The notes below the pieces were generated by a model that was not told where the DNA came from, searched no databases, and saw only the letters and a program-made list of their open reading frames with translations. This document shows, piece after piece, positions 2,252-8,165 of a DNA stretch of 20,525 nt. A program made the position numbers and the translations under genes. The first letter of the stretch is position 1, and the number at the start of each line of letters is the position of its first letter. The DNA is from a virus: positions 1 through 20,525 of IMG/VR virus record IMGVR_UViG_3300020474_000167, one strand, 5' to 3'.

Positions 2252-2686
2252 ATGGCAATACCAAATAACAGAGTAAATAGATTTATTGAAGACCAAGACA
2301 CTAGGATAAGTGTTGGTTTACAGATGCCATTGGGTAGACAACCTGGTACTACTGATGGATATTTTACATCTACTACGACAACAATGGATGCTGTGAAAGA
2401 AGATATTAAAATGTTATTAACAACTCAACGAGGTGAAAGATTGTTTCAACCATTTCTTGGTATGAATATAAGAAGATTTTTATTTGAACAGATAACCAAT
2501 GATACTGTAGTAGAAATTGAAAATGATATAGTGGATACATTTCAAATTTGGTTACCTTTTGTTGAGTTAAGAGAAATAGATATTACTTTACCTGAAAAGG
2601 GTAAGGAACAAATAAATATTTTTATTAAATTTAATATTAAAAACACACCCACTGATTTACAATCTGTTGGTGTGGTGGTGGAGTAG
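2252..2686 (+). CDS. 25: Baseplate wedge protein, gp25/GpW family
   Basis: A 144-residue protein of about the usual length for T4 gp25, the wedge component that joins the baseplate to the first sheath ring. The family hallmark is clear: DAVKEDIKMLL, then the RGER motif at residues 60-63, followed by LFQPFLGMNIRRFLFE, matching the conserved 'L..RpGER.f.P.fG..l...LFe' pattern. After it come a helix (VVEIENDIVDTF) and strands typical of the fold. The N-terminal 40 residues are extended and polar. The ribosome binding site is weak (AAAGAA near 2240-2245), so coupling to the preceding gene, four bases upstream, may matter. It is followed immediately by gp6, the same neighbour as in many contractile injection systems. 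Confidence 0.92.
   Translation: MAIPNNRVNRFIEDQDTRISVGLQMPLGRQPGTTDGYFTSTTTTMDAVKEDIKMLLTTQRGERLFQPFLGMNIRRFLFEQITNDTVVEIENDIVDTFQIWLPFVELREIDITLPEKGKEQINIFIKFNIKNTPTDLQSVGVVVE
2680..2683 (+). promoter_or_regulatory. Ribosome binding site that fixes the gp6 start
   Basis: GGAG lies seven bases before the ATG at 2691 and inside the last codons of gp25. It supports 2691 as the start of gp6, rather than the upstream in-frame TTG at 2667, which would add eight Trp-rich residues overlapping gp25. Confidence 0.7.
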
Positions 2687-2690
2687 AGAT

Positions 2691-4703
2691 ATGCCTTACA
2701 CAAAAAAACAAGCAGTGATACCGTCAAATGTAAGTTATACCAGTAAAGATTTTGCTACTATAAAAGCTGATCTCATAGAATATACTAAATCATATTTTCC
2801 TGATACCTATAAGGATTTCAATGAGACATCGCCTGGAATGATGTTGATAGAATTAGCAAGTTACGTTGGTGACGTGTTGAGTTACTACATTGATTATAAT
2901 TATAAAGAAAGTCTACTTACCACTGCTACTGAACGTAAGAATGTTCTTAGGTTAGCAGAGTTTTTAGGATATAAAACAACACCAACGACACCATCTATTG
3001 TTAGGTTATCTGTTAGTACTGAAATAGATGCAATAACATCACCTGGTGATGATTTGGGTAAACCTGATTATACAACTCTTTCAGGTAATTTAAGTAATCC
3101 AATCAACAGTGGTTTACAGATTAGATCAACAGAAAATACAGAATTAGTATTTGAAACTTTAGGTGAAATTGATTTTAATATAACTACTGAAAATCGAGAA
3201 GAAGTGATAACTCGTAATGATGCGGGAGTTGCTATTAAATATAAAATAACGAGATTTGTAAATGCTGTATCTGGTGAAACTAAAATAAAATCTTTTACTA
3301 TAACATCTCCAACTAAATTTTTAGAAATAGATTTAGATGAGACTAATGTGGTTGAGATATTAGATGTAAGGGATAGTTCTCAAGCGAAGTATTATGAGGT
3401 AGATTATTTAGCTCAAGATAGAATTTTAAAAGAAATTCATTATAGTGATGATCCTGATAGAGATGGTAGTGCTTATAATCAAGGTATTATTTCAGCTTTA
3501 GGAGAGGGTGTACAAAATGTTAGTGTTGATGTATCAATACCATATACTTTAGAATATGTAAAGACAAATAAAAAATTTGTTCGTAAGGTTGATCCTGAAA
3601 CTAATAACACTAAATTACAATTTGGTAATGGATTGTATAAATTTAATATATCAGGATCATCTAGTGCTGGTTTATTTTCAACAATAGAACAACAAGGTAT
3701 GTCGACAAGTGGTGTACCATCCACTGTGATAAATGCTGCTCTAAATAATTTAACTACAAACAATTCATTGAATCTTGGTGAAACTCCAACTAACACTGTA
3801 TTAACTGTAACCTATAGAGTTGGTGGTGGGGCTGATTCTAATGTTCAAGCTGGTGAATTAACAAACGTAATTAATTCAGATGAGCAAATAACTGTGACCA
3901 ATCTTGAACCAGCTAGTGGTGGAACTGATGGTGAAACTATAACAGAGATAAAAGAAAATGCTAAAACATTTTTTGCCTCACAATTAAGATGTGTTACTCG
4001 TGAGGATTATGCTGCTAGAATACTTAACTTACCTGCTAAGTTTGGTAATATAGCTAAAGCTCAAGTGGTTAGATTAAATAATGTCAGTGGATTAAAAATT
4101 TATACATTGTCTTATAATCAACAAAGACAATTAGTACAAACTCCTTTATTAGCCATAAACAATTTGAGAATGTATTTAGAACAATTTAGAATGATAAATG
4201 ATTCTTTAGATTTTGGATTTGCTACTGCCGATGCTGATGGTAATGTAACTGGTAATTTTTCAGCATATTTTATTAATTTTGGTGTTTACTTTCAAGTAAA
4301 TGCTGATAGGAGATTTAATCCAACTGATGTTAAACTAGAGGTTATTGATGTAATACGAGATTATTTTTTAATAGATAAAATGCACTTTGGTCAACCTATA
4401 AATTTAAATAATTTAAAATATGAAATACTAGGATTAGATGGTGTAATTGCCATTCCTACGTTAAAGATAACTCAAAATTTTGGTAACCAATCTCCAACAC
4501 CTGAGTTTACTGGTACAACAAGACGACTTTGTAATTTAAATGCCAGTGGTGGAACTATATCAGATGGAACATCTGGATATGGATTTGTTTATGATTTTGA
4601 AACAGCGCTATCAGAAGATGCAGATGTTATAAAACCATCTATAACACCAGCAGTTTTTGAATTACGAAATCCAAATACAGATATCTATGGGAGGGTAATC
4701 TAA
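2691..4703 (+). CDS. 6: Baseplate wedge protein gp6, baseplate J-like
   Basis: The frame is open from a TTG at 2667, but the ATG at 2691, with GGAG seven bases upstream, gives the better N-terminus (MPYTKKQ..), 670 residues, close to T4 gp6. gp6 dimers form the inner iris-like ring of the baseplate that opens during contraction. Family features: SPGMMLIELASYVGDVLSYY from residue 47, then TATERKNVLRLAEFLGY, the classic N-terminal baseplate-J pattern. The middle is beta-rich. A C-terminal part has FASQLRCVTREDYAARI and a region (LKIYTLSYN.., ..VKLEVIDVIRDYF) matching the J-like C-terminal domain. The stop overlaps the next ATG by one base. It belongs to the same module as gp25. Confidence 0.92.
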   Translation: MPYTKKQAVIPSNVSYTSKDFATIKADLIEYTKSYFPDTYKDFNETSPGMMLIELASYVGDVLSYYIDYNYKESLLTTATERKNVLRLAEFLGYKTTPTTPSIVRLSVSTEIDAITSPGDDLGKPDYTTLSGNLSNPINSGLQIRSTENTELVFETLGEIDFNITTENREEVITRNDAGVAIKYKITRFVNAVSGETKIKSFTITSPTKFLEIDLDETNVVEILDVRDSSQAKYYEVDYLAQDRILKEIHYSDDPDRDGSAYNQGIISALGEGVQNVSVDVSIPYTLEYVKTNKKFVRKVDPETNNTKLQFGNGLYKFNISGSSSAGLFSTIEQQGMSTSGVPSTVINAALNNLTTNNSLNLGETPTNTVLTVTYRVGGGADSNVQAGELTNVINSDEQITVTNLEPASGGTDGETITEIKENAKTFFASQLRCVTREDYAARILNLPAKFGNIAKAQVVRLNNVSGLKIYTLSYNQQRQLVQTPLLAINNLRMYLEQFRMINDSLDFGFATADADGNVTGNFSAYFINFGVYFQVNADRRFNPTDVKLEVIDVIRDYFLIDKMHFGQPINLNNLKYEILGLDGVIAIPTLKITQNFGNQSPTPEFTGTTRRLCNLNASGGTISDGTSGYGFVYDFETALSEDADVIKPSITPAVFELRNPNTDIYGRVI

Positions 4704-6301
4704 TGCATCGTTCATTTTTTGCTACAAAAGATACCTTTATCGATAGTGGTTCTAGAGAATCTGATGGTACTACCTTTCAAGATAAAAATGTAGGTCAAGA
4801 TGAAATCTTAGAACTAAAAAAAGTTTTTAGAAATAAAGAGTTTCATGCACCAACAAGAATGTTAGTTCAGTTTGATACTGATGAAGTAGAGAGTTACATT
4901 AGTTCCTCTGTATTACCAAGTGATTATAAATTAGTATTAAGACTTTATGAAACTGCTGGAACAAGTGGACTTAGTAATGATTACAATATAGCTGCTTATC
5001 CTCTAAGTGAATCTTGGGATGAGGGTATTGGTAAAGAAGTAGATAATCCAAAAACAACTGTTGGATGTAGTTGGTTGAATAGGCAAAATCGTGGTGATGA
5101 TATATCTGAAATAACTTGGTCAAATGCTGGTGGTACTTATATAGGTGAAGATGAGGTCACACAATCGTTTTCACTATCATCACCTGACATCGAAATGGAT
5201 GTTACATCAATAGCAAAAAAATGGTTTGGTGGTGTGAATCAAAATCATGGATTTCTACTTAGGTTTTCAGGTAGTTCAGAGCTTGGTACTATAACATCTA
5301 GTTCCATATCAGAATCATTAGCTATATCTGCTTCTACTGCACTTGTTGGTAAGGCTGGTGGAACTGGTGTTACATCATCATTTAGTGTAACAGTTGTAAG
5401 TGATGGTGGAAATAAATATGCTATAGATGGAGTCACAACTCCAAATCTAACACTACTTTCTGGTAATCAATATAGATTTTTACAACATGACAGTAGTAAT
5501 GCTGCTGGTGGTGGACATCCCTTTAGGTTTAGTTCAACAAAAACTAGTGGGCCTGGAGGAACTAATTTATACAGTATTGGTGTTACTGCAGTAGGTGATC
5601 CTGGTACTACTGGTGCTTATGTTAAAATAGATGTTACTGATTCTACAACAGGTTCATTATATTACTATTGCACTAATCATGCTGGTATGGGTAATGATGC
5701 CAGTGCTTCAATACAGACAAACACATTGGCAATATCATCATCTACATCTTCATCAATAGTAGAAACAACTATAAATCATACTTTACAAACTGGTGAATCA
5801 GAAGATTTAAAATTCTTTTCAAGACAAACCAATACAATTTATTCACCGAAATTAGAACTACGTTGGGATGATCATTTACCAGCAACTGGTTCAAACACAG
5901 GTAGTTTGACTCCATTAGATTTATCTGGTCAATCAGAAAACTATGTGTATCAATTACACACAAGAGAAGCTTATAAAGAAACTGAAACCGTTAAATTTAG
6001 ATTTGGTGCTCGTAAAAGATATATCAATAAGAGTTTCACAACATCGATACAGACTGTAAGTGGTAGTTATTTTGCTGAGGGTTCAGCGTCATATTCAATA
6101 ATTGACATGGCGACAAATGAGGATGTCATACCGTTTAGTTCATACACCACTATGAGTTGTGATCCCATATCACCATATTTTACACAAGACTTAAATACAT
6201 TTGAACCTAATAGGGCTTACAAAGTATTACTCAAGGTAAACCATAATGATGGTCAAACTATTGTGTATGATGATGATTTTGAATTTATAATAAGGAGTTA
6301 A
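4703..6301 (+). CDS. Virion protein with DNRLRE-type beta domain interrupted by a cupredoxin-like domain
   Basis: A 532-residue protein, likely a baseplate-peripheral or fibre part. Residues about 3-195 resemble a DNRLRE/CBM96-like beta sandwich: FFATKDTFIDSG at the N-terminus, RMLVQFDTDEV, YKLVLRLYETA, ITWSNAGGTY and HGFLLRFSGS. The ending of that fold (DLKFFSRQTNTIYSPKLELRW) appears only at about 369-389. In between, residues about 219-337 form a separate cupredoxin-like domain with H272, C323, H326 and M329. The C-terminal 120 residues (YVYQLHTREAY.. to FEFIIRS) look like another beta sandwich. GGGAGG at 4689-4694 is a strong ribosome binding site, and the start overlaps the gp6 stop (TAATG). 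No signal peptide or membrane segment is seen. Position after gp6, where T4 has gp7, suggests attachment to the wedge; homology to gp7 is not visible. Confidence 0.8.
   Translation: MHRSFFATKDTFIDSGSRESDGTTFQDKNVGQDEILELKKVFRNKEFHAPTRMLVQFDTDEVESYISSSVLPSDYKLVLRLYETAGTSGLSNDYNIAAYPLSESWDEGIGKEVDNPKTTVGCSWLNRQNRGDDISEITWSNAGGTYIGEDEVTQSFSLSSPDIEMDVTSIAKKWFGGVNQNHGFLLRFSGSSELGTITSSSISESLAISASTALVGKAGGTGVTSSFSVTVVSDGGNKYAIDGVTTPNLTLLSGNQYRFLQHDSSNAAGGGHPFRFSSTKTSGPGGTNLYSIGVTAVGDPGTTGAYVKIDVTDSTTGSLYYYCTNHAGMGNDASASIQTNTLAISSSTSSSIVETTINHTLQTGESEDLKFFSRQTNTIYSPKLELRWDDHLPATGSNTGSLTPLDLSGQSENYVYQLHTREAYKETETVKFRFGARKRYINKSFTTSIQTVSGSYFAEGSASYSIIDMATNEDVIPFSSYTTMSCDPISPYFTQDLNTFEPNRAYKVLLKVNHNDGQTIVYDDDFEFIIRS
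5360..5713 (+). other. Cupredoxin-like domain with complete type-1 copper ligand pattern
   Basis: Residues about 220-337 of the 532-residue protein. Strands FSVTVVS and LTLLSGNQYRFLQ lead to GGGHPFRFS (H272), then YVKIDVT and LYYYCTNHAGMG (C323, H326, M329). The spacing C-x2-H-x2-M equals that of amicyanin (CTPHPFM), and an upstream His lies in the expected place. This is an internal domain, not a separate gene. Confidence 0.65.
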
Positions 6302-6302
6302 C

Positions 6303-8165
6303 ATGGCAACTGGATCTTTTAGTTATGGAATGAGTAGCTATGGTGGTGGTTATGGAACTATAAAGATAGAACTATCAGAAACCAAATCATTGATTCAAGG
6401 TGTGGAGTATCAATATCAAATATTAGGTAATTCAGGTCCTGATAATACATATGTAGCTACGGCTGAACGTATACAAGGTAGGTTATTTTTAATTGACAAT
6501 AATTTTACCATTGATGAAAAAGATCCACCCTTTACACCTGGTAGACCAATAGTGATTTATGTTCCTGGAACAGGTGTACCTTTACTTGAAACAATGATAA
6601 CAAACATAACACCTTTTGAGCAAGAAAGTAAACAGCAACAAACTACATTTAACACCGAAACAATAAACCAAACAACTGGTGAAACACTTATCATAAAGGT
6701 TTATGATGGTAGTAATTTAAGAAAGTTTAATGGTATGCAAAGTATTTCAATTAATGAATTTATAGAAAATAATAAAGATATACCAATTATACAAATAGAT
6801 GAACTTTCAACTAATGGTCAAACTGTTAGCACCTACACTTCTGTTATAAAAAATAAATTTGGAAAGAAAGGACAAAAGAAGAAGAAAAAGAAAAAGAAAA
6901 AATTTAACTTATTTAAAAGTGATTCTAAATCAAATGTTAGTGCGAAAAGTGATACCTCTAATACATTTACTGAAATAAAAGGTGATACTGATTACAATAT
7001 AATGATTGATGATCCAGATAATATTCTTGGTAAGTTTTGGGAAATAAGTTACATAGGTACACCACCACCACCACCACCGATGTATGAAGAAGAACCTATT
7101 GAACCAATACCAGCTAGTTTCCCACCAGCTTATCAAAACTCAAACAACGAAGGTGTTGAAGGATTACTAACTGGTAGAAAATGTAGTAACTGTCAATTTT
7201 TTGAAGCTGAAAGTGGTAATTGTTCTAAATGGAATGCTATAGCTCGTGATTACTATTGGTGTGCTGCTTGGAAAACTATGGAGCCTGTAATAGCTCAACC
7301 AAACGAGTTTACCTCACGTATAAGTCAAACTAGTAATTCAGAAGACGAGTTGTATAATTTTTTTATAGAACGTGTTAAAGATCCAATATCACAAGAACCA
7401 AATCTTTCTAATTTTCTATCACCATTGAACGCATTACATTCAACATATAATGCTTATCTCTACGGTGATTCTTTGAGAAGAATGGTAGATTCTGGTAATG
7501 CTTATGATTTTGATAATGTCCCTTTAAATTTCTTTTTTACTGATCAAGATAAATTTTTAAGTGCTATAGATTTTATAAACAATGGTGGTTTGTCTGAGTT
7601 TGATATACCAGAAGAAGAATATGATTCAGTGCAACAACACCTTTGTACTTATACGTTAAATAAAAAAGAGTCTTCATCTTTACCACAAGAGTTTCCACAA
7701 TCAATTATAATAAATTTATATGGAAATTTTTTTGGTAGTCCAATAAATATATTATCACAATTAGATTTTACAAATGCTAAAATTGCTTATAATCCTAGTA
7801 GACATGTTTTGGTTGATAGTAGACTTGTAAATTATGAGAGTGTTGGTAGACTTCATATTGATTTAGTTAAACCTAGTATTCGTGAAAGAGTAATTAAATT
7901 TTTAAATGATAATTCTAAAGACTATAATTTAGATAATCTATCAAGTGTAAAATTTAAACAATGGATTGCAGATAGATCGTTTACTTCTGAAAGATGGCAA
8001 GATTTGTATAACTATTTACTAACTATTAGTGTTATATCATCAACTGATCAACAGTTGATTGAATTAATACAAAATACTTTAGGTGAGCAATTAATAGATA
8101 ATCCAAGTACTACTATATTACCCTTTCAAACAGAAGTTTTAGCTGGTGAGGAATCAGGAGTATAA
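6303..8165 (+). CDS. Putative virion protein with Lys and Pro tracts and a HiPIP-like four-Cys motif
   Basis: A 620-residue protein that I do not recognise as a whole. It starts with a Gly/Ser/Tyr-rich segment (SYGMSSYGGGYG). A beta-rich region to about 165 follows, then a basic linker with nine consecutive lysines (192-200) and a six-proline run (254-259). Next is GRKCSNCQFFE..GNCSKW..YYWCAAWK with C294, C297, C307 and C320, which matches the [4Fe-4S] ligand pattern of high-potential iron-sulfur proteins (C-x2-C-x9-C-x12-C-x2-W). Residues 345-620 are mostly helical and unrecognised. AAGGAG at 6292-6297 is a strong ribosome binding site; the gap to the preceding gene is one base. Location in the baseplate/fibre operon suggests a structural role. 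The low-complexity linker separates two folded halves. Confidence 0.75.
   Translation: MATGSFSYGMSSYGGGYGTIKIELSETKSLIQGVEYQYQILGNSGPDNTYVATAERIQGRLFLIDNNFTIDEKDPPFTPGRPIVIYVPGTGVPLLETMITNITPFEQESKQQQTTFNTETINQTTGETLIIKVYDGSNLRKFNGMQSISINEFIENNKDIPIIQIDELSTNGQTVSTYTSVIKNKFGKKGQKKKKKKKKKFNLFKSDSKSNVSAKSDTSNTFTEIKGDTDYNIMIDDPDNILGKFWEISYIGTPPPPPPMYEEEPIEPIPASFPPAYQNSNNEGVEGLLTGRKCSNCQFFEAESGNCSKWNAIARDYYWCAAWKTMEPVIAQPNEFTSRISQTSNSEDELYNFFIERVKDPISQEPNLSNFLSPLNALHSTYNAYLYGDSLRRMVDSGNAYDFDNVPLNFFFTDQDKFLSAIDFINNGGLSEFDIPEEEYDSVQQHLCTYTLNKKESSSLPQEFPQSIIINLYGNFFGSPINILSQLDFTNAKIAYNPSRHVLVDSRLVNYESVGRLHIDLVKPSIRERVIKFLNDNSKDYNLDNLSSVKFKQWIADRSFTSERWQDLYNYLLTISVISSTDQQLIELIQNTLGEQLIDNPSTTILPFQTEVLAGEESGV
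7182..7271 (+). other. HiPIP-like four-cysteine motif in a virion protein
   Basis: Residues 294-323 of the 620-residue protein: C294-x2-C297-x9-C307-x12-C320-x2-W323. The aromatic residues QFF after the second Cys, and YW before and W after the last Cys, agree with the C-terminal half of HiPIPs (..GWC..W/Y/F). A structural zinc site is the alternative. This is a motif within a gene. Confidence 0.6.

Follow-up and report, generated by a model that had tools for sequence, protein, structure and literature searches.

A predicted cupredoxin-like domain with a conserved type-1 copper ligand set in a baseplate-region protein of a phage

A protein encoded in the baseplate region of the virus record IMGVR_UViG_3300020474_000167 (20,525 nucleotides, analysed at full length and called the window below) contains a domain with a predicted cupredoxin fold and the complete His, Cys, His and Met ligand set of type-1 copper proteins. 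This assignment, first proposed in an initial annotation made from the letters of the DNA, is supported by the predicted fold and by the conservation of the four residues. By its predicted fold, the order of its ligands and its homology at the profile level, the domain appears to belong to the cupredoxin superfamily, outside the family PF00127 as Pfam cuts it. Its place is unusual for this superfamily, in exchangeable proteins of the tails and baseplates of marine phages. In the reading preferred here, which is held with slightly better than even confidence, the insert is a cupredoxin domain with a predicted type-1 copper site that serves as an exchangeable display or adhesion module and is probably loaded with copper outside the cell.

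The window has a single copy of the domain, in a 532-residue carrier protein (Table 1). Genes for gp25-like and gp6-like baseplate wedge proteins lie upstream of the carrier gene, and the label 'baseplate region' given to it at the outset therefore holds; in Mel-JY01 and immuto phages, too, the orthologous carrier gene comes after one for a gp6-like protein. The carrier is probably present in the virion of this phage. Because the predicted model of the full-length carrier is too poor to use (pLDDT 48.2), surface exposure of the cupredoxin-like insert is presumed rather than read from a structure.

Table 1. Features of the carrier gene, its domain and the upstream genes (window coordinates)
Feature	Position	Strand	Evidence or remark
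gp25-like baseplate wedge gene (P0004)	2252..2686	+	PF04965 E 3.3e-10; phrog_261
gp6-like baseplate wedge gene (P0003)	2667..4703	+	phrog_219 E 2.2e-23; phrog_10646 E 7.3e-23
Gene of 532-aa carrier (gp6-adjacent baseplate-region protein)	4703..6301	+	ORF; orthologue gene order
Carrier N-terminal half, residues 1-192	4703..5278	+	
Linker preceding domain, residues 193-224	5279..5374	+	Missing from insert-less orthologues
Cupredoxin-like domain core, residues about 225-338	5375..5716	+	Model of 5345-5737, Foldseek, VIA-align, profile comparison
His272, predicted Cu ligand 1	5516..5518	+	Sequence, profile alignment, conservation
Cys323, predicted Cu ligand 2, sole Cys of analysed segment	5669..5671	+	Sequence, profile alignment, conservation
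His326, predicted Cu ligand 3	5678..5680	+	Sequence, profile alignment, conservation
Met329, predicted axial Cu ligand	5687..5689	+	Sequence, profile alignment, conservation
Linker following domain, residues 339-366	5717..5800	+	Mostly missing from insert-less orthologues
Carrier C-terminal half, residues 367-532	5801..6298	+	90-93% identity to closest orthologues

His272 lies within the string GGGHPF, and Cys323, His326 and Met329 lie within YYYCTNHAGM, all at the positions originally noted; the span first given for the domain (nucleotides 5360-5713, residues 220-337) corresponds to its extent. The window domain has the order His...Cys-x2-4-His-x2-4-Met that characterizes type-1 copper proteins. 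The spacing of amicyanin is C-x2-H-x2-M, and C-x2-H-x3-M is found in many relatives of the window domain. An intradomain disulfide was discarded as an explanation of the Cys, which is single in the segment.

The AlphaFold2 model of positions 5345-5737, for which the input included 37 aligned family members, is all-beta (pLDDT 79.5, pTM 0.78). Foldseek against the PDB placed rusticyanin and AcoP on top, followed by multicopper oxidases or laccases, plastocyanin and Cu-nitrite reductase (CuNIR), and rows 1-38 are all cupredoxins, multicopper oxidases or CuNIR; the best match has a probability of 1.00 with an E-value of 1.4e-3, and no row reaches E <= 1e-3. VIA-align gave a top Z of 8.3 (rmsd 3.1-4.0), shared by rusticyanin (rmsd 3.1, 108 residues aligned) and the N-terminal portion of a CuNIR with three domains. 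As a Z near 8 can be common, a caution that VIA-align itself attaches to such values, the fold call relies on the consistency of the match list in its entirety. The model and fold search that had been suggested as a check thus point to a Greek-key beta-sandwich of the cupredoxin type, with modest Foldseek E-values. An Ig-like domain was considered and rejected, as Ig-like chains first appear at ranks 39 and 42 among the best 50 Foldseek rows. Among viral models, the structure search returned 67 matches at E up to 1e-3, chiefly phage tail proteins. Among these matches are giant-virus 'beta-sandwich proteins' in BFVD (Marseillevirus LCMAC201 and Pithovirus LCPAC302/304, E 2e-6 to 4e-5).

For the window domain, homology to copper proteins lies below Pfam detection. 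A Pfam search of the window protein with matches admitted up to E 1 gave no family, so the gathering cut-off of PF00127 was not reached; searches of PDB sequences, with a single sequence or a profile, and of NCBIfam returned nothing relevant. Among 37 family members, PF00127 weakly matches six (best E 0.086) and PF25489 (At5g54830-like) weakly matches three. A reference profile was built from ten PF00127 proteins, which come from eight of ten domain-bearing genomes, and it retrieves solved plastocyanins, pseudoazurins and amicyanins from the PDB. Comparison of the family profile with this plastocyanin-type profile by hhalign gave a probability of 94.5 and an E-value of 7.6e-8, and placed H58/C109/H112/M115 of the segment (H272/C323/H326/M329 of the carrier) on all four copper ligands. 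The hhalign score in a local rerun was 44.0, as against 20.3 for the best of 200 column shuffles. When the ligand columns were masked, the score was 20.7 and the best shuffle 14.9 (n=200), the probability dropping to 7.9; with or without masking, 0/200 shuffles equalled the score. Since the masked score exceeds all 200 shuffles, a weaker homology signal remains outside the ligands, and the explanation that the similarity is due solely to the four ligands was rejected, though with a masked probability of only 7.9. The profile comparison therefore argues for sequence homology to proven type-1 copper proteins. A Bacteroidetes PF00127 domain (L172:1501-1752) contains the strings SGHPF and YYYQCSLHNGM and seems to stand between the plastocyanins and the family seen in phages.

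Conservation of the four residues was followed in three scans that differed in their dependence on the ligands. The first viral scan, which used a pattern covering C323 and H326, yielded 80 loci with 89 domain rows, and H/C/H/M is found in all of them. In the second, the query was cut before the Cys and no pattern lay over C323, H326 or M329; the set is intact in every domain of its 48 loci that is not truncated by a contig end. The genome scan, with patterns covering none of the four ligands, gave 34 loci. Ascertainment through the CxxH pattern was checked by this query ending before the Cys and by the ligand-free genome patterns. All sources together gave 207 rows, equal to 146 distinct domains, and the full set of H, C, H and M is kept in 137 of the 146, although ligand-less copies may be under-found because copies were gathered with a profile from ligand-bearing members. 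Of the nine exceptions, two are domains truncated at contig ends, four belong to a single SAR116 protein and three to cyanophage proteins. Recurrence in independent scans, in 137/146 domains, rules out a chance motif, and the retention of H272, C323, H326 and M329 by homologues, on which the original proposal could have failed, was found. After clustering at 60% identity, H272 is present in 29/29 full-length clusters and C323, H326 and M329 each in 28/29, where 'full-length' means an alignment reaching the Met column, a definition biased against ligand-less copies. The ligands are among the top six positions, and only Y257 and F259 (29/29 each) equal or exceed them. The SAR116 exceptions come from a giant open frame (L162) with four degenerate ligand-less copies and one full-set copy.

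The family recurs in many marine phages. By tblastn, the domain is found in 113 of 50,697 phage records, whose names begin with Synechococcus (70), Cyanophage (16), Prochlorococcus (16), Methylophilales (4), Pelagibacter (3) or other words (4); the hosts of carrier phages include marine cyanobacteria, SAR11 and Methylophilales. The family in marine phages suggested at the outset thus exists, and to judge by the names and hosts given in the records its phages are marine. The carriers extend to an Autographiviridae podovirus and small pelagiphages, and the domain was not found in the plasmid collection. Depositors annotated the carriers as tail fiber, gp7 baseplate wedge, baseplate wedge tail fiber connector, minor tail, virion structural or hypothetical proteins. 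In S-TIM5, the carrier gene lies near the portal gene and 'virion structural protein' is the depositors' wording; in Mosig, the N-terminus of the carrier is T4 gp9/10-like (PF07880 E 3.5e-7). Sampling of 27 of the 113 matching records gave 30 copies at E below 1e-3, of which 22 have the full ligand set and eight an incomplete one, so ligand-less versions exist in cultured phages. Incomplete sets occur in single copies (S-SZBM1, S-H25, S-CREM1, P-TIM40, P-RSM6) and in second copies (S-SSM5, Syn19, ACG-2014a). In the loci L274, L275, L276, L280 and L281, the proteins with ligand-less versions of the domain are cyanophage structural proteins.

The domain also occurs in cellular genomes, within giant open frames of a Bacteroidetes single cell (5494 aa), SAR86 (3469 aa), a euryarchaeote (2353 aa) and Prochlorococcus (2543 aa). 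Three giant frames, partly cut by locus ends, were scanned with Pfam and contain Big, FG-GAP, cadherin and RTX repeats; such domain-bearing frames of marine bacteria and archaea look like surface adhesins. The domain profile matched ten of ten genomes at fifteen places and PF00127 matched ordinary copper proteins in eight of the same ten at ten places, with no place common to the two lists; some of the cellular records are metagenome assemblies, in which the smaller contigs may be contaminated by phage DNA.

Within the carrier family, the domain behaves as a removable insert. The carrier orthologues of Microcystis phage Mel-JY01 and Flavobacterium phage immuto have no domain, and in these proteins a GFL(L/I)K strand is almost directly joined to an NTIY.P segment. 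Among carrier orthologues of viral contigs, 5/67 have the domain (two distinct domain sequences) and 62/67 do not, which is the in-frame presence and absence among close orthologues expected of an exchangeable decoration domain. No domain copy was found in two related records of about 130 kb, which may be fragments. Five of the 62 domain-less orthologues (L213, L214, L221, L224, L236) have another insert of comparable size, roughly 190 aa, which sits in a different loop, near the ITWSNAGGTYI of the window protein. Identity between the window protein and L192/L193 is 83% in the N-terminal half, 55-58% in the domain and 92-93% in the C-terminal half, and the four ligands are kept. For the domain, dN/dS comes to 0.17-0.42, against 0.05-0.08 for the C-terminal half, with dS of the same order in both. 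The domain is evolving fast under purifying selection.

On the preferred reading, the domain (residues about 225-338), inserted in a loop of the gp6-adjacent baseplate protein, would be one of the exchangeable, outward-facing display or adhesion modules on marine phage tail and baseplate proteins, drawn from a pool of modules shared with the very large adhesin-like proteins that marine bacteria and archaea encode. The particle would assemble with the copper site empty, and one copper ion would then be acquired from lysate or seawater, outside the copper-poor cytoplasm. Bound copper would lock the ligand loops, and the loaded domain would act as a rigid module touching the host surface or adjacent tail parts, without electron transfer. 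Copper binding, the loading route and the adhesion role are thus proposals of this scheme. In known type-1 copper proteins, this ligand set serves electron transfer; a display or adhesion module is favoured here because neither a baseplate loop nor an adhesin has an evident redox partner. A domain of cupredoxin fold might instead be displayed free of copper, the beta-sandwich doing the work and the four residues being kept, metal-less, for packing. The eight of 30 cultured-phage copies and the four SAR116 copies without the full set count against a copper site, since the fold can evidently be maintained where the site is missing, and copper-free cupredoxin folds exist elsewhere. The copper-free alternative is unlikely, though it gains from the ligand-less copies, in which the fold can evidently do its work with no such site; against it, the four residues rank within the six best-conserved positions across 29 clusters, and Cys, the second His and Met are lost jointly in the five single ligand-less copies, a pattern that fits a metal site better than packing.

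Other proposals accept a metal and differ in its identity or use. The loaded site might be a copper lure that aids docking to a host metal-uptake system, much as the Trojan Horse hypothesis proposes for iron. That hypothesis concerns HxH motifs in the tail fibres of marine phages (PMC11705849), and the lure would suit a family found, in the phage collection, in phages of marine hosts and in proteins annotated as tail fibre and connector; it is nevertheless very unlikely, given that the domain is also found in cellular adhesin-like proteins and in the S-TIM5 protein encoded near the portal gene. Zinc or iron could stabilize the domain in place of copper, since Cys, His, His and Met can bind other metals and zinc and iron sites occur in phage tails; the order and spacing of the residues, with four ligands in register, fit type-1 copper proteins and leave this a faint prospect. 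Most improbable is a redox centre that exchanges electrons with the host envelope or with oxidants and in this way detects contact or shields the particle. Electron-transfer proteins use the same ligand set and a conserved HiPIP-like four-Cys motif lies in the next gene, but no partner protein is known, the adhesin contexts need no redox function and the Fe-S match of that gene is weak (E 0.82). The motif itself, C-x2-C-x9-C-x12-C followed by x2-W (window 7182-7262, + strand), lies in the protein encoded at 6303-8165; it is matched by PF01355 at E 0.82 and, weakly, by HiPIP chains in the PDB, and its four Cys are kept in the six distinct sequences among ten matches from orthologous loci. The same protein has a lysine run at about 6870-6910 of the window (+ strand). 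A wider proposal, distinctly improbable, would make copper metalloparticles of the tailed phages of the sea, a range that spans cyanobacterial and SAR11 myoviruses as well as podoviruses: they would bear type-1 centres on baseplates and fibres, here beside a HiPIP-like Fe-S motif in the next baseplate-region protein, and would use the metal state to sense the host or to dock to it.

If copper is bound as the preferred reading predicts, the machinery with which abundant marine viruses contact their hosts would bear a defined transition-metal centre. Virus particles would then gain a place in ocean copper chemistry, and the iron Trojan Horse would have an analogue with another metal that can be tested directly. 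Even without copper, more than 100 phage records gain a fold and a family for proteins whose annotations go no further than tail fibre, structural or hypothetical, and the natural ligand-less copies are a means of testing the role of the metal. A literature search that excluded most subscription journals and all bioRxiv preprints found no title on a virion cupredoxin.

Several known systems resemble the window domain in part. Plastocyanin, amicyanin and pseudoazurin (PF00127, Copper-bind) have in common with it the ligand order His...Cys-x2-His-x(n)-Met, with all four ligands aligned; however, they are soluble electron carriers whereas the window domain is part of a structural phage protein, the first ligand is followed by Asn in plastocyanin and by Pro in the window domain, and the domain falls below the Pfam detection limit for PF00127. 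Rusticyanin and AcoP, cupredoxins of acidophiles, are the closest structural matches to the model (for rusticyanin, rmsd 2.7-3.2 Å across about 100 residues in VIA-align), but identity in the structural alignments is just 11-20% and the context differs. Ig-like domains occur in tailed-phage tail proteins as exchangeable inserts. They are likewise beta-sandwiches in structural proteins whose presence varies among close relatives, and the window domain is set apart from them by its cupredoxin top matches and its conserved four-residue site. The profiles of the PHROG tail families phrog_30742, phrog_693 and phrog_677 match the window domain (phrog_30742 at E 5.9e-20), and their descriptions say tail fiber or connector, never cupredoxin. 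The HxH iron sites of phage tail fibres (T4 gp37, R22Y) are likewise metal sites proposed in a marine phage tail protein, and differ from the window domain in their ligands and in the predicted metal (PMC11705849).
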